A stretch of 64,000 bases of DNA from Tubulanus polymorphus (taxonomy: Eukaryota > Nemertea > Palaeonemertea > Tubulaniformes > Tubulanidae). A program made the translations under genes and the position numbers. The notes below the pieces were generated by a model. The model made no database searches. It was not told the DNA's origin and saw only the letters and a list, made by a program, of their open reading frames with translations. Positions 15,302 through 27,330 of the stretch are shown piece after piece. How positions within the stretch are numbered: the stretch's first letter is position 1; every line of letters begins with the position of its first letter. The stretch is from positions 18,510,153 to 18,574,152 of the forward strand of contig NC_134028.1 of NCBI RefSeq assembly GCF_964204645.1, read 5' to 3'.

Positions 15302-15720
15302 TTGTTATACACCGATAGATTAACTCTATCAATACAACGTAATAAAGCTAAAGCGAAAAGAGCTAGAGAAAATGAATTGGCTCGAGAACGAAATAGGAAA
15401 ATGCGTGAAAGACGCAAAAGTGAAAAAAATGAAACAACAGTAAAAAAACTAAGAATAGTTTTGAATCAAACACCTCAAAAGAAAACATCTGTAAAAAATA
15501 ATGCTGCAACAAGAAACAAAGTAAATGAGCAACGTGAATACTGGTGTCAAAAGAAACGCGAGGCGCGTGCCAGATGGTCAGCGCAGAAATTGCGACGCGT
15601 GCGCGAAAAAGATCATAATAGAAAACAAACAAAAAAGGAACAAAATAAATCAAAAAGTGGAAATGATGAGGCCTGTGCTCCGATAGACAAAAGTCCTTTT
15701 ACTGGAAAACAGCAATTTAA
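15302..15720 (+). pseudogene. Basic coiled-coil ORF, 5' part (interrupted by Kolobok)
   Basis: An open frame rich in Lys, Arg and Glu (for example RERNRKMRERRKSEKNE, and YWCQKKREARARW) runs up to the TTAA at 15717-15720. The true start is not visible; the frame is already open near 15302, where the codon is TTG. After the Kolobok element the same frame resumes at 20771. It resembles N-terminal basic regions of invertebrate transposon-associated proteins that end in an LPxSPRK motif. Function unknown; probably a component of another mobile element. Confidence 0.6.
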
Positions 15721-15734
15721 AGGACTACTGAACA
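15721..15734 (+). repeat. Kolobok left terminal inverted repeat
   Basis: AGGACTACTGAACA, directly after the TTAA target site. The reverse complement is at 20753-20766. Similarity stops after 14 bases. Confidence 0.92.
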
Positions 15735-15903
15735 ATTTTGTTTTTTCCCTTGAATCAATCCAGTAAGATGTAATAAATGATAATCTAATGACCTTAGGTA
15801 TATTTGTTTTCATTTCGAATACTTTTAAGAGGTTTTTTCTTGCTACGGCAAACCAAAATATACGTAGTCGCGATGCTCAGCAATCTCGGGTAATCCCCTG
15901 TGG

Positions 15904-15919
15904 TGACGTCAGCGCGAGA
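15904..15919 (+). promoter_or_regulatory. CRE-like motif upstream of transposase
   Basis: TGACGTCAGCGCGAGA lies about 100 bases before the transposase ATG. TGACGTCA is the full CREB/ATF consensus. The inner 14 bases occur inverted at 20564-20577 in front of the second gene. It may serve as shared promoter or as subterminal transposase-binding repeat. Confidence 0.55.
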
Positions 15920-16014
15920 CGTTGAGAACCCGGAAGTATTATCAGCCTCGTTCAGATTGCGATAACAACAGGAGATAAAGTGATTATAAAAAGATTTTAA
16001 AACGATTTTAAACT

Positions 16015-19000
16015 ATGCCACGGCGTTGTGTGTACTACAATTGTAGTACACAAGATTCCTTGTTATACAAATGGCCGCGTGATCCAAATATTGCTAGAGT
16101 ATGGACTGCTTTTGTGAGTACAAAGCGAGCACAATGGAAGCCTTCGTCATCAAGTGTGCTCTGTAGAAAACATTTCACAACGGAGGCCTTCGACAATTAC
16201 ATGGAGTACAATGCTGGTTTTGCTAATAGGTTTGTATATTAAAAACATCAATCCCATAAAATAAACTGATACCTTGATTCTACAGTTTTTGAAACAAATC
16301 ATATTTAATTCTTCACTTTCGAGTGACCTGGGCCTAAGTGTGTCATGTATAATCAGGCGACTTGTAATTAGTTTGGAAACAACTGACTATTATGATGCAT
16401 TTTTCACTTCAGTCTTCGATTAAAGAAAGATTCTGTACCAACTTTGCATCTCAATGATTCTGTTGTGTCGAATTCTGTTGACTCGCCTCAGAAAGCAGAT
16501 TTTTTGAGTCCGCAGATGCAGAAAGGACGTTCAGCTTTTGAAAAGAGACGGAGGCTAGCGATGGTCAATGATGCGACTCAACCAAGTGTAGCTGAACCAG
16601 AGCTTCAAAGTATTGACTTTGAAATTGATGGTGATGGCGATCTCGATAAGATGTGGGAAACTGTAGCTGTTCAAACTGAACCTATCACATCTAGTAAAGG
16701 TAATTACATCCATTCGAAATCATGAATAAGATAGTTGCCTACCTACTTTTAATTTCATATTTCATTTGTTGATTATAGAAATTGAATTAGATTTGATCAG
16801 TATTATTCAAAAATATACTTTTAATTTCATATTTCATTTGTTGATTATAGAAATTGAATTGAATTTAATCATTATTATTTAAAAATATTTTTTCAGCAAT
16901 CCAAACTCTCAAATGGAAACCTAAGTACTTTTGTCAACGTCGACATTTCCCAAAATATTCAAAACCGAAAATCAAAAGCTACAAAATCAGACGCACCTCA
17001 CGTGGGGTTCAATGTTCCCTTCTATCCCCAAAGACAAGACCCAAGAAGCGATACAGAAAGGCTAGTCAGAGCAGTGTCTCATCAAACAAGACAGATTCTG
17101 ATGAAGAATATCGTCCAGAGTGCGACACGGAGACTGAATCGGATGATGAATTTCAAGAAGAAAGTTTGAAATTTGAAGAAATGAAGTAAGATGATCATTA
17201 CATGTAGCCTACCCTCAAGTTAGATATCATGACATAGAAATTTGTATTTGATTTTGTCGAGAGATCAATACTAAGATCTGTGAAATTATAGAAGTATTTT
17301 TACTTGCAGGAATGAAGATGACGTTGATTTTCAGGATCAGACCAAGTTTATTGTTTATCAGTCTGCTCTGCTGATACTATTTCAATTCTGCAGTATCTGC
17401 AAGGGTGAAAATCTTGTCTCGAAGAGTGTGTCTTCTACCTGTCTGACAGTTAGAACCCAGTGTAAGCTGTGTAACCACAGGACCACATGGAAAAGTGAGC
17501 CATCCATCAAGGGTATTCCCGTTACCAGTATATTATTGAGTGTTGGAATACTACTGACAGGAAGCCTAACAGCAAAGGTGATCAGGTTGTTTAAGTAAGT
17601 TGAAACCAATGCTTGTCATCAAATTGTGCCTTAATTTTCATCGACTTTTTAAAAATACATTTCAATATATAATTTCAAACATTCATTGTCAATCCAGCTT
17701 CATAAAAATTCAGTGCCTTTCAACGCGAACAGTGTATAACCATCATTCGAAATACATCCATGCAGCTATACGACAAGTTTGGGAAAGGAAACGCGAGACT
17801 ATGCTTGATAGTCTCAAATCATCTCCACTGTTGATAGGAGGAGATGGACGCTGTGACTCACCTGGCCACTCGGCAAAGTACTGCTCATACTCGATAATGA
17901 ATCTGGAGACCAATAAAATAATAACTTCTGAGTTAGTCCAAGTAAGTATGCCTTGCAGTTATTCAGGGTTTATGAATGTGGATTCGTTTTTTAGGTATTC
18001 TGTTTTTTTAATGTATAATTCAGTCAAATGAAGTGACATCATCAAATGCGATGGAACTAGAAGGCTTAAAAAGATGCGCAGAAAAACTGAAGAAATTCAA
18101 AATCACAGCTCTCGTAACTGATATGCATTTGTCCGTTAGAAAATGGGCACGCGACACTTGGAAAATTCCACATTACTATGATACTTGGCATTGTGTCAAA
18201 GGTGCGTAAGTAACACAATTTTGTAAATGGTTTCTTAAGGCTTGTTCACAAAGATCTACGTTTTGTTTATCATTTTATCTGTCAAGCGGTCACAAGAAAA
18301 CTTGAACGCCTAGGAAAGCAAAAAGACATGGAGGTTATCAAAGAGTGGATACCCAATATCAAAGTCCATTTGTACTGGTGTGCCCAATCCTCAGAATCAG
18401 GAGACCACGAGACAATAAAACAGAAATGGCTGACATGCATACAGCATGTTCAAAATAATCATGAGAACTGTCTCCACGCATCATATTCTAAAAAAAAGAA
18501 ATGGTTAATTCCAGGTATATTTTTCTATTCTCTATTTAATAGCTACCCGGTTAGATAATTAAGTGTAAATAATTGTTTTCATTTTGATTTATTGATCTTT
18601 AAATTTTTTAGGATCCAATGTTGCATCTGAATTTGAGAATCTTGCAACTAACACGCGGACAGTTAATCAGATATCCAATATGTCTAGCTATGGACAAACC
18701 AGCAGTATTGAATGCTTTCATAACATCTTAAATCATTTTGCCCCTAAGATGATACATTTCTCTTACGTCGGAATGCTCAGTAGGTATGTAAATACATGTA
18801 CAAATATGAATTTACAAAATCACATCATTGTTCTACCTGGTACATTATCATTCTATCTTCATTTCAAATTCCATTAGGATCTGTATAGCAATACTTCACT
18901 ATAACGAAAATTCTGAACGAATTCAAGCTGAAACGAAGACTGGTAATCAGCGATGGCAGGTGCACTATCCAAAGTATAAAGATGGTCACGTTTTAAGAAA

Positions 19001-19397
19001 AATTCTGACAAAAACCACTCATGGTAGGCTGAACCTAACAAAGTGTGATATTATTTACTAAAAATTACTCGGCTTCATTAAAAAAAATTTTTTTTCAGAT
19101 TACGTCAAGTTATGCTTTGCAGAAGTTTTTAACAACATAAAGAGACGCCCGCATGATTCCTCTAAAATAAATGTACCAGCCACATTGATCGCGGATCGCA
19201 AAAGGGTAGTTAAGGATGAAGCGGTAATCTACCATACATCAAGATTCAAGAAGGTTACCGAAAAGGTCAAAGGAAAATCAAAATCAACTGTCCTCGCTAC
19301 TCAACCTAAAAAGCGATTTCGAAAACTGACTGTCAACACCGAATCTATTGATGAAGTGATTCGCGAGGTTCTGGAAAGTGACTTGGTTGACAATTAA
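16015..19397 (+). CDS. Kolobok THAP-DDE transposase, ten exons, intact
   Basis: Exons: 16015-16229, 16413-16699, 16897-17185, 17310-17594, 17698-17941, 18024-18201, 18287-18514, 18612-18783, 18878-19023, 19099-19397. All introns are GT-AG and 80-200 bases long, all phases agree, and the sum is 2343 nt (780 residues plus stop) without an internal stop. Residues 1-80 form a THAP zinc domain (C5, C10, C50, H53; W30; closing motif SVPTLHL). A Cys4 zinc-ribbon-like segment (C291, C294, C315, C318) precedes the catalytic core. Probable catalytic acids: D408 in GGDGRCDSPG, D473 in TALVTDMH, E609 in SSIECFH. The C-terminus is basic (KKRFRKL). The product should bind terminal sequences in the nucleus and cut at TTAA. 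Catalytic residue assignment is inferred from position in family motifs. Confidence 0.9.
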
Positions 19398-19568
19398 TAA
19401 CCACTTGACTATTTACTGCTGTTATAGCTATCATTGTAGTTATTTGAATTCCTTGTTACTCGGCTCAAGATGACATGATTGACAACTTTTTTAATGCAAA
19501 ATATATACAAATCATTTATTCTTGTAAATTAATAAAATATTTTATACATTGCAACTAAAAATTGCGTT
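19398..19568. terminator. Convergent 3' region with polyadenylation signals
   Basis: AT-rich spacer between the two stop codons. Plus strand AATAAA lies at about 19531 (in taataaaat) for the transposase; TTTATT at about 19514 is AATAAA on the minus strand for the second gene. The transcripts' 3' ends may overlap. Confidence 0.6.
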
Positions 19569-20544
19569 TTAGTTTTCTAATGGAGGTAGACGGAATCCTC
19601 TGAATTGCTGATCCTCTTCGAGAACATCTTCTTTTGGGAAATGTGCCCTGATGCATGACACGATACATGCAGGCAATATAACTCTATTGTTTTTGCCGCA
19701 GAATCCCCAGCACCATCGAACACACTGTCTATATGCAATGTGCCTATATTTGTCTGGTAAAGGTCCCTCAAACGCTTTACGGCCATACTGCGAACGAAAC
19801 CCATACCACGCTGTTTCCAGCACCGAAACATCCAAACACACTGACTGAAATGATGGCGTATCAGTCATGCAAGTGAAATGGTCGTCTCCTGGTCTTGCAT
19901 TGAGCTGGTCTAATTTATTTTTGACCTCGGGAACCTCATGGCAGCAGATACACTCTGGCTCAGTGTCCAATATCTGGCAATGAGAGCAATGACACCTAGG
20001 AAAGAGAAAATGATTTTGAATTACCACGTTCAGTCTGCAAATTGAAAGTTAAACATCCCTAGAAACTAGCTAACACAAAGATGTATGCTACGCCTCGCTC
20101 GAGTAACGTACTACAACAACTATTGTTGAGTTCGATGACAATAACATAGGCCTATTGTGAGCAGTGAGTAATAGGCCTACCACGTTGTAATAAAAGTGTA
20201 TGGTTAGTTAGACAATACTTTTTCTTAGGAATGCCGTGAATAAAATATTTGACCTTATTATGAATAATTTTTTTTAAACAATAGTTATTCATTACCATTC
20301 ATAGGCGATCCACGTCTAATCTATTCAGTCTATCCGGCCTGTCATCAGGTCGGTCGCCCTCTTCCGAGTCGGATGCATCTGGCTCATATAAATATGGATC
20401 TAGAATTGGTTCTGCCACGTTTACAGTCTCCACAGATAATTCACTGCCCGACTCACTGTCTTCCCTTTCAATATAATTATTATCTGACGAAGAATCTTCT
20501 GAACTTTCATCACTGTTGCTTATGTTGTTAATTGTATCCGCCAT
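19569..20544 (-). CDS. P2X7 C-terminal (ballast)-like zinc protein in Kolobok
   Basis: Exon 2 (19995 down to 19569) encodes a Cys/His-rich domain: CHCSHC, CICCHEV, then CLDVSVLETAWYGF, YRHIAYRQCVRWCWGF and RVILPACIVSCIRAHFP, the pattern of the intracellular C-terminal domain of P2X purinoceptor 7, which binds zinc. No channel domain or membrane segment is present. Exon 1 (20544 down to about 20292) starts at a true ATG and is Ser/Asp/Glu-rich with EPILDPYLYEPDASDSEE. The acceptor at 19996 (tttcctag) is clear and needs a phase-2 donor; the best donor, ATG|GTAATG at 20291-20296, is preceded in frame by a TGA and is one base out of phase. If that donor is used, the joined codon would be Trp, giving the usual W-C-x-C start. 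So either exon 1 has a one-base indel or a small exon is missed. The role in transposition is unknown. Confidence 0.75.
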
Positions 20545-20563
20545 GTTTTTTTACAAAGTAACT

Positions 20564-20577
20564 TCTCGCGCTGACGT
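20564..20577 (-). promoter_or_regulatory. Inverted copy of CRE-like motif upstream of the P2X7-like gene
   Basis: TCTCGCGCTGACGT is the exact reverse complement of 15906-15919. It begins 20 bases upstream of the ATG of the minus-strand gene. An E-box-like CACGTG follows at about 20583. Confidence 0.55.
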
Positions 20578-20752
20578 TTACTCACGTGACCTGCTCATTA
20601 CACGTGGTCAGAGTAAACAAAACAGCGGAGATCTTACAAAAGTTAATTTTTTTGGTTAAAAAAACTTCATGTAAATATTTTTAGGAGTCAATATGGAATA
20701 TGTGTTACTTGATCAACAGTATAGTGGAAAAATACGATGCATATTGGAATAG

Positions 20753-20766
20753 TGTTCAGTAGTCCT
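20753..20766 (-). repeat. Kolobok right terminal inverted repeat
   Basis: Reverse complement of the left end, abutting TTAA at 20767-20770. Confidence 0.92.
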
Positions 20767-20770
20767 TTAA

Positions 20771-20909
20771 TGATGCCACTTCAAGGGCAAAAAAGAATTT
20801 ACCTAAGTCCCCCCGGAAATATGCAGCGGTTGTAGAATGAATTATTCAAAACGCGAGCCCCCGAAAAAAAGGTGCATTGGGTGACCCACTATCTTGCGAA
20901 CTTCAGTAA
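20771..20909 (+). pseudogene. Basic ORF, 3' part (continuation after Kolobok)
   Basis: Joined across a single TTAA, the frame of 15302-15720 continues without shift: AKKNLPKSPRKYAAVVE, then a TGA at 20838-20840, then IIQNASPRKKGALGD and a stop at 20907. The LPKSPRK...VV and ASPRKKGAL motifs continue the family pattern, so the TGA is probably an Arg-codon loss (CGA to TGA) and the gene was already, or has become, a pseudogene. Confidence 0.65.
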
Positions 20910-23617: not shown

Positions 23618-23650
23618 CTACAAGGGTAAGCACATCAAATTGACACATAC

Positions 23651-24229
23651 CAGGATATGTTTGCGAGGTGCTGATTCTAGAGATTGTTGCAATGAAGTAT
23701 CTTCCTCATCATCACTTGCTACGTAATCACTGTCATCATCTTCTTGCGCTGTATATAACTGGTTTGTATGTTCACGTTTCCAAACACCACCAATATCTTC
23801 TTCTGTCTGCTCTTCAGAAATGACAGCTTGATCCTTTACAGGTGGTAGTGCCTTCAATTCATATGCATCACAAGGCAATAATTCATTTGTCCGTAGGCAT
23901 TCACTCAACCACATACATTGAACAACTTTGACACTTTGGGCTGGAGTGGATTTTAGTATTTTGCAAATCTTTTCCCAGTTAAATTTTTCATCAACAATCA
24001 AATGTGTAACAGTTGAGCCTAGTGTATCACTACAACGACCACAGTGTTTCTTTATTTGTTGACCAAACAATTCTCGTCTAGATTTACTGAGGCTCCCAGC
24101 TGGCAACAGGTAGAAACAGTAGTCTTGTAACAGTCCTCTTGATTCAGGAGTGGGTGTCAACTTTATACGTTTGCAGTCAGAGGATGCCATCGCATCAGAG
24201 TCTAATTGCTTTGTTATAATGGTCGTCAC
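23651..24229 (-). CDS. POLL: DNA polymerase lambda-like gene, N-terminal BRCT exon
   Basis: An internal exon read leftwards: acceptor ttttag at 24235-24230, donor CTG|GTATGT with the exon ending at 23651. The first plausible ATG is at 24190, so the exon begins with a few bases of 5'UTR and an upstream non-coding exon must exist. The coding part is 180 residues: a lysine-containing lead, then a BRCT domain (LPAGSLSKSRRELFGQQI, VTHLIVDEKFNWEKICKIL, VKVVQCMWLSECLRTNELL), then an acidic Ser/Asp/Glu linker (EEDIGGVW, DDDSDYVASDDEED). DNA polymerase lambda has exactly this order, using BRCT to bind the XRCC4/Ku/ligase IV end-joining complex. The 8-kDa and polymerase domains are not in the window's left part as far as I can see. 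A polymerase mu/TdT or other BRCT protein is the alternative. Confidence 0.75.
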
Positions 24230-25688: not shown

Positions 25689-26061
25689 ATGCAGGACCCT
25701 GATAGAGTGTCCGCTGACCGACCAGAAGGTCCTAGCCCCGGTACAAGTGGTACAGGAAAGGGGGCAGTTCACGGAAATCCATCTCGCAGCCGATCACGGA
25801 GATCGCGATCATCTCCGGAAGTCGAGCTTTCGGATGCTTTCTCCGCCGGAGGGTCAGATTTTGACTATGAATCCGATGCGTAAAGTGATAATGACTTGCG
25901 TTCAACAGTTCAATCGGCATGTTCTAATAAACGGGTTCGTAGGGCCAGTTTAAGCCCTAGTTTCAGTTCGTCGCCAGAATCGTACGATAAAACGAAACGT
26001 AAGACTAAGAGACACAGATTGAGCCGCAAACGTTCTGCCTCATCTGGGGCACAATCAGTTA
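25689..26061 (+). pseudogene. RS-rich ORF of unknown element, N-terminal part
   Basis: Starts with ATG and encodes a Ser/Arg-rich protein (SRSRRSRSSPEVELSDAF, then an acidic DFDYESDA) with one in-frame TAA at 25881; the frame continues with SDNDLRSTVQSACSNKRVRRASLSPSFSSS and a basic Lys/Arg stretch. It resembles low-complexity gag/ORF1 proteins of retroelements but has no diagnostic motif. At about 26062 it runs in frame into a reverse transcriptase fragment that starts mid-domain, so the junction looks like a 5'-truncated insertion. Confidence 0.5.
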
Positions 26062-27330
26062 AATCATCTGTTCTTGAGATTTCTTGTGGAGTACCTCAAG
26101 GTTCTATCCTCGGGCCATTATTATTCCTCGTCTATATCAATGACTTGTACATTTCAACACCTAACTTAGACTTAGTTCTTTTCGCGGACGACACTTCAGG
26201 GTTGGCGTATGACAGGGACATAAATTCTCTTCTAACAAAAGTTAATAAGGATTTAGACTCTCTTCACGATTGGTTACTTGCTAATATACTATCTCTCAAC
26301 ATGAAAAAAACAAAATTTATCCTATTCCACTCTAGTCAAGCCTTTCATTAGTAATGCATTGAGAAATCCCCTAAAACTGTTTATTAAAGGTAAAGAGATG
26401 AGTAGAGTAGATCACATTAATTTTTTAGGCATTATTTTATAAGAAAACCTTAACTGGAAACCCCACATAGCAAAAAGTTCACAAACGAATTTCACAAGGC
26501 CTGGGTATCATCTATAAATGCAGTCAAATTCTAAATCAAAAATCACCTCATCCTCATCTACAATGCACTTGTCCTTCCTCACTTAAACTATGGTATATTA
26601 TCATGGGGTCACTCACCACACACGCAAAAATGTCTTTTACTTCAAAAACAAATAACTCGAATTATTACTAAGTCTAACTTTACTGCCCACTCTGAACCAC
26701 TCTTCAAACAACTTAATCTTCTCAAAATAAATGATCTCTACACACTTAAAGCCACTCTTTTCATCTATGACACACTCAAAAACAACCCTCCAAAATACTT
26801 CAAAAACTTTTATACTGCAGATCTTCTCTCAACAAATTATCTAATCATTAAAAGCATTCACCTTGACCACAACTATTCTTCACTTACAAACCCACATTTA
26901 AAAAAAACAAAATCACCGAAAGAATATCTTACTAATATATGGAGAACATTACCAATTAGTAACGTTATCGACCTTCTAAGTAAATCATCCGTTAAATGTA
27001 TGTTAAAAACCTATCTCATCTCCACTTATAGTAACCTAACTGTTTGCAATAATATTAACTGTTATAACTGTTATTTAAGATTATTGAATCCCCAAACCGT
27101 ATAATTAATAATCAATCACATGATAATTACGCATCCACATTCTGCTGAGTCATTTTGTTAATCATATTTGTATAATTTGTGTATATTTTTGTTACGGTAC
27201 TTTGTTTGATTTTTTTGTATGGGTGCTAGCGTTAAGCGGCCTTTCTGGCTTTGCTAGGCCTGTGTAGATTGTATATATGTTTACATATTGTATTCTATGC
27301 AAATAAATCTATTGAATTGAATTGAACTGG
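26062..27330 (+). pseudogene. Jockey-like non-LTR RT fragment
   Basis: Begins at the RT palm: SCGVPQGSILGPLLFLVYINDLY, then LDLVLFADDTSG (catalytic FADD), DWLLANILSLNMKKTKF, and after stops and frameshifts GIIL, ITRIITKSNFTAHSEPLFKQLNLLKI and a C-terminal Lys-rich tail to about 27100. A 3'UTR with AATAAA leads to a TTGAA-repeat tail at about 27310-27326. The 5' two thirds (endonuclease, fingers) are missing. Inactive. Confidence 0.85.

Follow-up and report, generated by a model that had tools for sequence, protein, structure and literature searches.

The window analysed here, a 64,000-nucleotide stretch of the genome of the palaeonemertean ribbon worm Tubulanus polymorphus (C4:18510153-18574152; the genome searched comprises 267.8 Mb in 77 contigs), contains a Kolobok transposon with two convergent genes. 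As delimited by its ends and by the reading frame that it interrupts, the whole element spans 15717..20770 (5,054 bp, both TTAA copies included; neither the element nor the TTAA copies are assigned a strand). The TTAA target site duplications (15717..15720 on the left and 20767..20770 on the right) flank perfect 14-bp terminal inverted repeats (TIRs), namely AGGACTACTGAACA, with purines first, on the plus strand at 15721..15734 and its inverted copy on the minus strand at 20753..20766; an inverted-repeat search returns the TIR arms as 23 bp at 91%. The element cuts an unrelated plus-strand ORF, the left part of which lies at 15302..15716 and which resumes at 20771 and continues to about its stop (20771..20842). 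When the flanks are joined with a single TTAA, this foreign frame is open through to a stop, and at C1:19738338 the genome contains a related sequence that lacks the interruption and differs by 3 mismatches (one match in the genome, none for a reversed-pattern control). With TTAA and a TIR at both ends and a foreign frame interrupted by the insertion, the boundaries of the element are clean. The interrupted ORF itself (15302-15716 plus 20771-20842) is a basic frame.

The plus-strand gene (16015..19397) encodes a transposase of 780 amino acids with THAP and DDE parts in ten exons (exons 1-5, 16015-16229, 16413-16699, 16897-17185, 17310-17594 and 17698-17941; exons 6-10, 18024-18201, 18287-18514, 18612-18783, 18878-19023 and 19099-19397). 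All introns are of the GT-AG type and the frame is open across all ten exons. The spliced product is strongly basic (net charge +38) and contains a THAP domain (PF05485, E 3.8e-10), its sole Pfam match at E up to 0.1. The alignment with 120 relatives gives the catalytic residues as D408 (120/121), D473 (119/119) and E609 (103/109) and the DxxH motif as D493 (117/119) and H496 (119/119); between DxxH and the last E, the residues H553 (110/112), H558 (111/113), C561 (111/112) and H563 (111/111) are kept as well, and we infer that they form a zinc finger. Pfam searches of the spliced transposase and of five of the six ORFs of at least 80 amino acids that overlap the element detect no His-Me nuclease, lambda-type exonuclease, DEDDh nuclease or RecQ helicase domain (KolobokP/E/D/H). 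At E up to 0.001, P2RX7_C is the only family matched by these five ORFs, which comprise all but the one at 19577-19831.

The minus-strand gene consists of two exons and corresponds to KolX, the second protein that, together with the transposase, defines the Kol0 lineage of Kolobok according to Kojima and Bao (2022; PMC9587614), who also assign the ballast fold to it. Exon 1 (20296..20544; ATG at 20544, GT donor after 20296) encodes an acidic N-terminal part rich in Ser, Asp and Glu; the corresponding tail of a relative, the Tubulanus gene model P0001, has a net charge of -20 over 87 residues. Exon 2 (19569..19995, frame open, stop at 19569) encodes the P2X7-ballast domain, with a match to P2RX7_C (PF20478) at E 2.2e-9 and 37.9 bits for a cut-off of 23.5. 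A search of solved structures with a single KolX sequence gives P2X7 as the best but weak match (E 0.0072) and, at E 1.1, two chains that are unrelated to it; with a profile of 19 KolX relatives, the four hits at E 1 or below are all P2X7 (E 1.9e-5 to 3.3e-4). KolX matches P2RX7_C only, and no P2X channel domain was found by Pfam in the ORFs scanned. A reading of the same DNA from the sequence alone had described a channel-less minus-strand gene at 19569..20544 that carries the P2X7 ballast domain, lies within exact transposon boundaries and is convergent with the transposase; all of this is borne out by the PF20478 match, the Pfam searches, the TTAA and perfect 14-bp TIR pair at 15717-20770 and the opposite strands of the two genes.

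The KolX copy of the window is slightly broken, whereas the transposase next to it is open. Exon 1 of this KolX is slightly shorter near the 3' end than those of three other copies (L010, L011 and L012), and a TGA immediately upstream of the splice donor closes the exon 1 frame, so that this KolX is probably not made intact. Stops in exon 2 are found in other copies of the same family (family A; C4:17471038, C5:10950514 and C1:16172583). Since the window copy and several of its sister copies are broken, they need not make KolX protein.

A search of the genome with KolX exon 2 yields at least 84 matches that merge into 69 places, fragments included, and 28 of these (the window, the next best 20 and seven weak ones) were examined. 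Transposase exons are present at 26 of the 28 loci and are convergent with KolX at every one of the 26; the other two, L030 and L032, have no transposase exons. A TTAA/TIR pair encloses KolX together with the transposase exons at 14 of the 28 loci, all in different places (with one TIR mismatch in L019), and the same anatomy recurs with different TIRs in three families: A, to which the window belongs, C (AGGATTTGTGACAC) and D (AGGGTAACTGACACTTTT). Public gene models correspond to some of these copies: P0001 is the gene of L014, P0002 is that of L016 or of a near copy, and P0006 matches L034, a member of family E (95% over 39 residues). One could suppose that KolX is an unrelated host gene that came to lie between TIR-like sequences by chance, and the presence of relatives as ordinary genes in public gene models is the one point found in its favor; given 14 enclosing TTAA/TIR pairs and 69 places in the genome, such a coincidence is extremely improbable. 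On the strength of the repeated TIR-bounded copies, both the host-gene and the chance-TIR readings are rejected, and among the 28 loci the domain is not found mainly as host genes away from TTAA/TIR ends.

The association was also counted from the TIRs, which were taken from KolX-bearing copies: the genome was scanned with each TIR at up to one mismatch and neighboring ends were paired, the tallies for family D being based on 100 of its 178 ends. On this basis, KolX is present in 19 of the 20 pairs that are 3-9 kb long (A 5/5, C 4/4, D 10/11), in A 1/1, C 1/1 and D 0/3 of those of 9-16 kb, and in none of the 20 pairs below 3 kb, all of which belong to family D and most of which measure about 1.44 kb. 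Thus, in what was examined, copies of autonomous length almost always carry KolX. Same-family copies that lack the gene do exist, namely the 20 short pairs, one family D pair of autonomous length (6,967 bp, C7:12736015-12742981) and three further D pairs without a KolX match (C4:5843071-5856417, 13,347 bp; C8:2875592-2888953, 13,362 bp; C7:9947585-9962746, 15,162 bp). The sequence-only reading had named such copies as grounds against its proposal; 19 of the 20 short pairs are below the 2.3-kb length of the transposase frame and cannot hold it either (the remaining one measures 2,585 bp). The near-equal lengths of the 13,347- and 13,362-bp pairs perhaps go back to an insert shared by both within a derivative of 1.44 kb, or else to a large element of composite make-up. 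A separate arrangement is seen at C5:8610971-8664760, where four TIR ends of family A share the minus strand, with gaps of about 27.1, 13.3 and 13.3 kb between them, and look like a tandem array.

Copies that have lost transposase exons bear on the possibility that KolX is a self-limiting regulator, such that copies losing the transposase and keeping KolX damp the full ones, as truncated P-element proteins damp the activity of full copies. Two TIR-bounded family D copies fit this description, L023 with no match to transposase exons 4-6 and L027 with no match to exons 4-7, both with an open KolX exon 2, whereas L020 has the exons in question. These copies, however, come from a search with KolX as the query, which would overlook loss of KolX with a retained transposase; the mere position of KolX places it outside a central deletion; and conservation across phyla would also fit a required partner. 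We consider a regulatory role of this kind unlikely.

Where copies have diverged enough, KolX is under purifying selection, both within family C and between families B and C. In family C, dN/dS of exon 2 is 0.10-0.17 in seven pairs, which have copies in common and are thus non-independent (L015/L016/L017, L018 and L026; 8-10 nonsynonymous and 12-19 synonymous changes), and three comparisons of B with C give 0.07-0.08 with dS near saturation. The transposases of the same seven pairs show dN/dS of 0.19-0.54, values inflated by some stops in L018 and L026. In these pairs, the constraint on KolX is no weaker than that on the transposase, a point in favor of a role for KolX in the life of the element. 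Near-identical copies are uninformative on selection: 15 pairs in family A give 0.15-2.39 on at most 11 nonsynonymous and six synonymous changes, and three pairs in family C give 0.13-0.81 on at most three and two such changes, respectively. Together with the consistently convergent orientation (26/26) and the occurrence in 19 of 20 TIR pairs of 3-9 kb, this selection supports the earlier proposal that KolX is a regular cargo or accessory protein of the transposon.

The KolX sequences of families B and C are closer than their transposases: exon 2 of L014 (B) is 77-79% identical to those of L017 and L018 (C), compared with 43-50% for the transposases over the codons compared. The KolX tree groups B with C (support 98/96) and appears discordant with the transposase tree, and the right TIR of family B resembles that of family A. 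An exchange of KolX between families was considered and is not claimed, because the transposase data are compatible with a B+C grouping and do not reject it (p-AU 0.124).

By all these features the element is a Kol0-type Kolobok that carries KolX, a member from Nemertea, the assignment to Kol0 being based on features rather than on a tree with Repbase references. It has the TTAA duplication, the 5'-RR...YY-3' termini (AGG...CCT in families A, C and D and at the right end of B), a DDD/E transposase with DxxH and the conserved residues of the inferred zinc finger, as well as a second protein with similarity to the P2X7 ballast, and thus shares with described Kol0 elements the target site duplication, the ends, the transposase type and KolX. 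In Kolobok, the third C of the zinc finger between DxxH and the last E is extremely conserved (absent only in Kolobok1). Kojima and Bao (PMC9587614), who trace Kol0 to Kapitonov and Jurka, name vertebrates, annelids, cnidarians and sponges as the hosts of Kol0 in the passages concerned, in contrast to which Nemertea is a new phylum. In the literature searched, KolX appears in PMC9587614 alone, and Kolobok in conjunction with P2X7 appears in that paper and in a review; a paper on Xenopus Kolobok (PMC6004289) yielded no useful passage on P2X, ORF2 or accessory proteins. According to Kojima and Bao, P2X7 arose by the fusion of a P2X4-like gene to KolX (PMC9587614), so that a transposon source for the P2X7 tail is already in print and is not a new idea; the present data are consistent with a transposon origin of the P2X7 domain.

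Short proteins with a C-terminal ballast domain and no channel, as in KolX, are also known as nanor-like or ZCD proteins (Rump et al., 2020; PMC7016195), but these are few host genes, whereas the Tubulanus KolX is present in dozens of copies, mostly transposon-borne. It could be argued that an old animal ZCD/ballast gene came first and was captured later by Kolobok as a passenger; ZCD genes with two common neighboring markers from sponges to sea urchin are described by Rump et al. (PMC7016195), and this could be an old host locus. Such a capture seems improbable to us: a convergent KolX, under selection where measured, recurs in several families that have diverged from one another, the fewer than ten genes per species counted by Rump et al. 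do not fit the 69 places (fragments included) of the present genome, and Kojima and Bao argue for the opposite direction (PMC9587614). KolX is almost certainly an accessory gene of Kol0.

Both ends of the element carry matched subterminal sequences. In the window, the left subterminal repeat (15906..15923, plus strand; about 190 bp from the end, repeat identity 94%) overlaps a CRE-like TGACGTCA box, and the right repeat (20560..20577, minus strand; about 195 bp from the end) contains a CRE-like half box just upstream of the KolX ATG. Across 14 copies of families A, C and D, the box (TGACG/CGTCA, with the full TGACGTCA at some ends) is located about 160-215 bp inside 27 of 28 ends, the one without it being the right end of L013, and the right end of family B has a box at 193-196 bp too. 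Because these ends belong to near copies within three families, the number of independent cases is about six. The rate of the box in the inner parts of four elements, 0.0015 per bp, corresponds to about 0.08 expected per 55-bp zone, which serves as a guide and not as a test because the box was chosen after looking. In families A and C, the boxes are located upstream of the ATGs of both genes and within a longer shared repeat (14 and 18 bp, respectively; 40 mononucleotide shuffles give no more than 10 and 12). In family D, the KolX start is not fixed, and the longest word common to both subterminal regions is 8, no more than in shuffles. The simplest reading is that the boxes are matched promoters of KolX and the transposase, and the alternative is that they are transposase binding sites. 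On the former reading, each subterminal region would hold a promoter that mirrors the other, and the two genes would be activated jointly.

The KolX domain retains a set of cysteines that matches the P2X7 ballast. Among the relatives that cover each position, the cysteines are C3 (75/75), C5 (76/76), C8 (75/76), C19 (124/125), C20 (124/125), C44 (125/127) and C112 (126/127); these seven were equated with the P2X7 zinc ligands by pattern (CxCxxC and CC...C...C), and HMMER aligned the CC pair differently. Two more near-invariant cysteines, C55 (126/127) and C116 (120/127), lie outside the seven-cysteine zinc pattern. The shared features thus comprise the CC...C...C cysteines, the RHxAYR stretch and the equivalent of R578 (P2X7 ballast, PF20478; PDB 6u9v), and the differences of KolX comprise the lack of a detected P2X channel, a longer stretch from CC to the next cysteine, the extra C55 and C116, and the loss of the R574 and K583 equivalents. 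An AlphaFold2 model of KolX, with a fair mean pLDDT of 78.4, has five helices. The protein may fold as a zinc-stabilised helical domain.

In rat P2X7, GDP is held by R546, H547, R574, R578 and K583, and beyond deuterostomes only R546 and R578 of these are said to persist (Rump et al., 2020; PMC7016195). Contrary to the latter statement, the H547 equivalent is kept in KolX, including the window copy, P0001 and P0002. In the best-listed 127 KolX relatives, four of which are Tubulanus models (P0001, P0002, P0006 and P0162), R86 (equivalent to R546) is present in 125/127, H87 (H547) in 126/127, R118 (R578) in 121/127 and Y90 in 127/127; the two other contacts are not kept, with V in 126/127 at the R574 position and P in 113/127 at the K583 position. 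The P element offers a parallel for a nucleotide in such a system: it likewise combines a THAP domain with a DDE core, its transposase (THAP, RNase H and a GTP-binding insertion) requires GTP as a cofactor, which the inserted domain binds (PMC7776569), and a guanine nucleotide is possibly part of the transposition machinery in both. The GTP domain of the P element lies inside the transposase, whereas KolX, with a different domain and putative nucleotide binding, is encoded by a gene of its own. By this analogy, the kept guanine-nucleotide residues could let a nucleotide tune the assembly or activity of the transposition complex.

Taken jointly, the data are very probably explained by a Kol0-type Kolobok in which KolX is the standard second gene. 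Both genes would be expressed together, and KolX would be a zinc-folded partner of the transposase. As for the individual parts, a trans-acting partnership with the transposase, rather than carriage as passenger cargo, is the moderately favored role of KolX, and its acidic tail might suit contact with the basic transposase. A nucleotide-tuned role is a tentative and on balance doubtful suggestion by analogy, and the stricter version, in which KolX would be the guanine-nucleotide-binding subunit of the Kolobok transposition complex and the counterpart of the internal GTP domain of the P element, is slightly more doubtful still.

The passages of PMC9587614 on KolX contain no statement on its role for the transposon, and what the Tubulanus copies add is evidence of KolX as a regular, selected partner of the transposase. 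The functions of the zinc and nucleotide sites of the P2X7 ballast are described as unknown in PMC9859053, and the role of KolX would tell what this domain first evolved to do. If KolX were indeed a nucleotide-binding subunit, the nucleotide site in the P2X7 tail would be a leftover of transposon biochemistry. With several families that include close copies, T. polymorphus is a workable place to test the need for KolX and guanine-nucleotide binding.

Relatives of both genes are found in other animals. A KolX profile search yields 785 relatives at E<=1e-3, and the names among the best 120 include corals, sea anemones, hemichordates, echinoderms, nemerteans and fish; KolX-like gene models are public for another nemertean, Lineus longissimus. 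The transposase has its best relative in the pipefish Corythoichthys intestinalis (LOC130927604, 39% identity over 94%), and the same fish has a KolX relative with the consecutive NCBI gene number, LOC130927605, suggesting that the two genes are neighbors. In the transposase tree, family E of Tubulanus (L034) joins the pipefish protein (99/95), and in the KolX tree, P0006 groups with two pipefish proteins, a goby protein and two from the acorn worm Ptychodera (93/93). KolX and the transposase appear to move together, perhaps even between species. When rat P2X7 is included in the KolX tree, the rat fragment falls beside a Tubulanus row, but its branch length of 7.6 changes per site makes this position uninterpretable.

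The names 'P2X purinoceptor 7-like' and 'P2X purinoceptor 7' given to KolX-like gene models of corals, a sea anemone and Tubulanus are misleading; models of the 'P2X purinoceptor 7-like' kind in corals and worms can be transposon genes. Finally, two ORFs of other kinds lie beyond the right end of the element in the window. A minus-strand ORF at 23618-24229 with a BRCT domain (PF00533, E 2.4e-10) is likely an exon of a host gene beside the Kolobok, and the ORF at 25896-26351, which contains a stretch, GVPQGSILGPLLF...FADDT, that we take to be reverse-transcriptase-like, is probably a fragment of a non-LTR retrotransposon.
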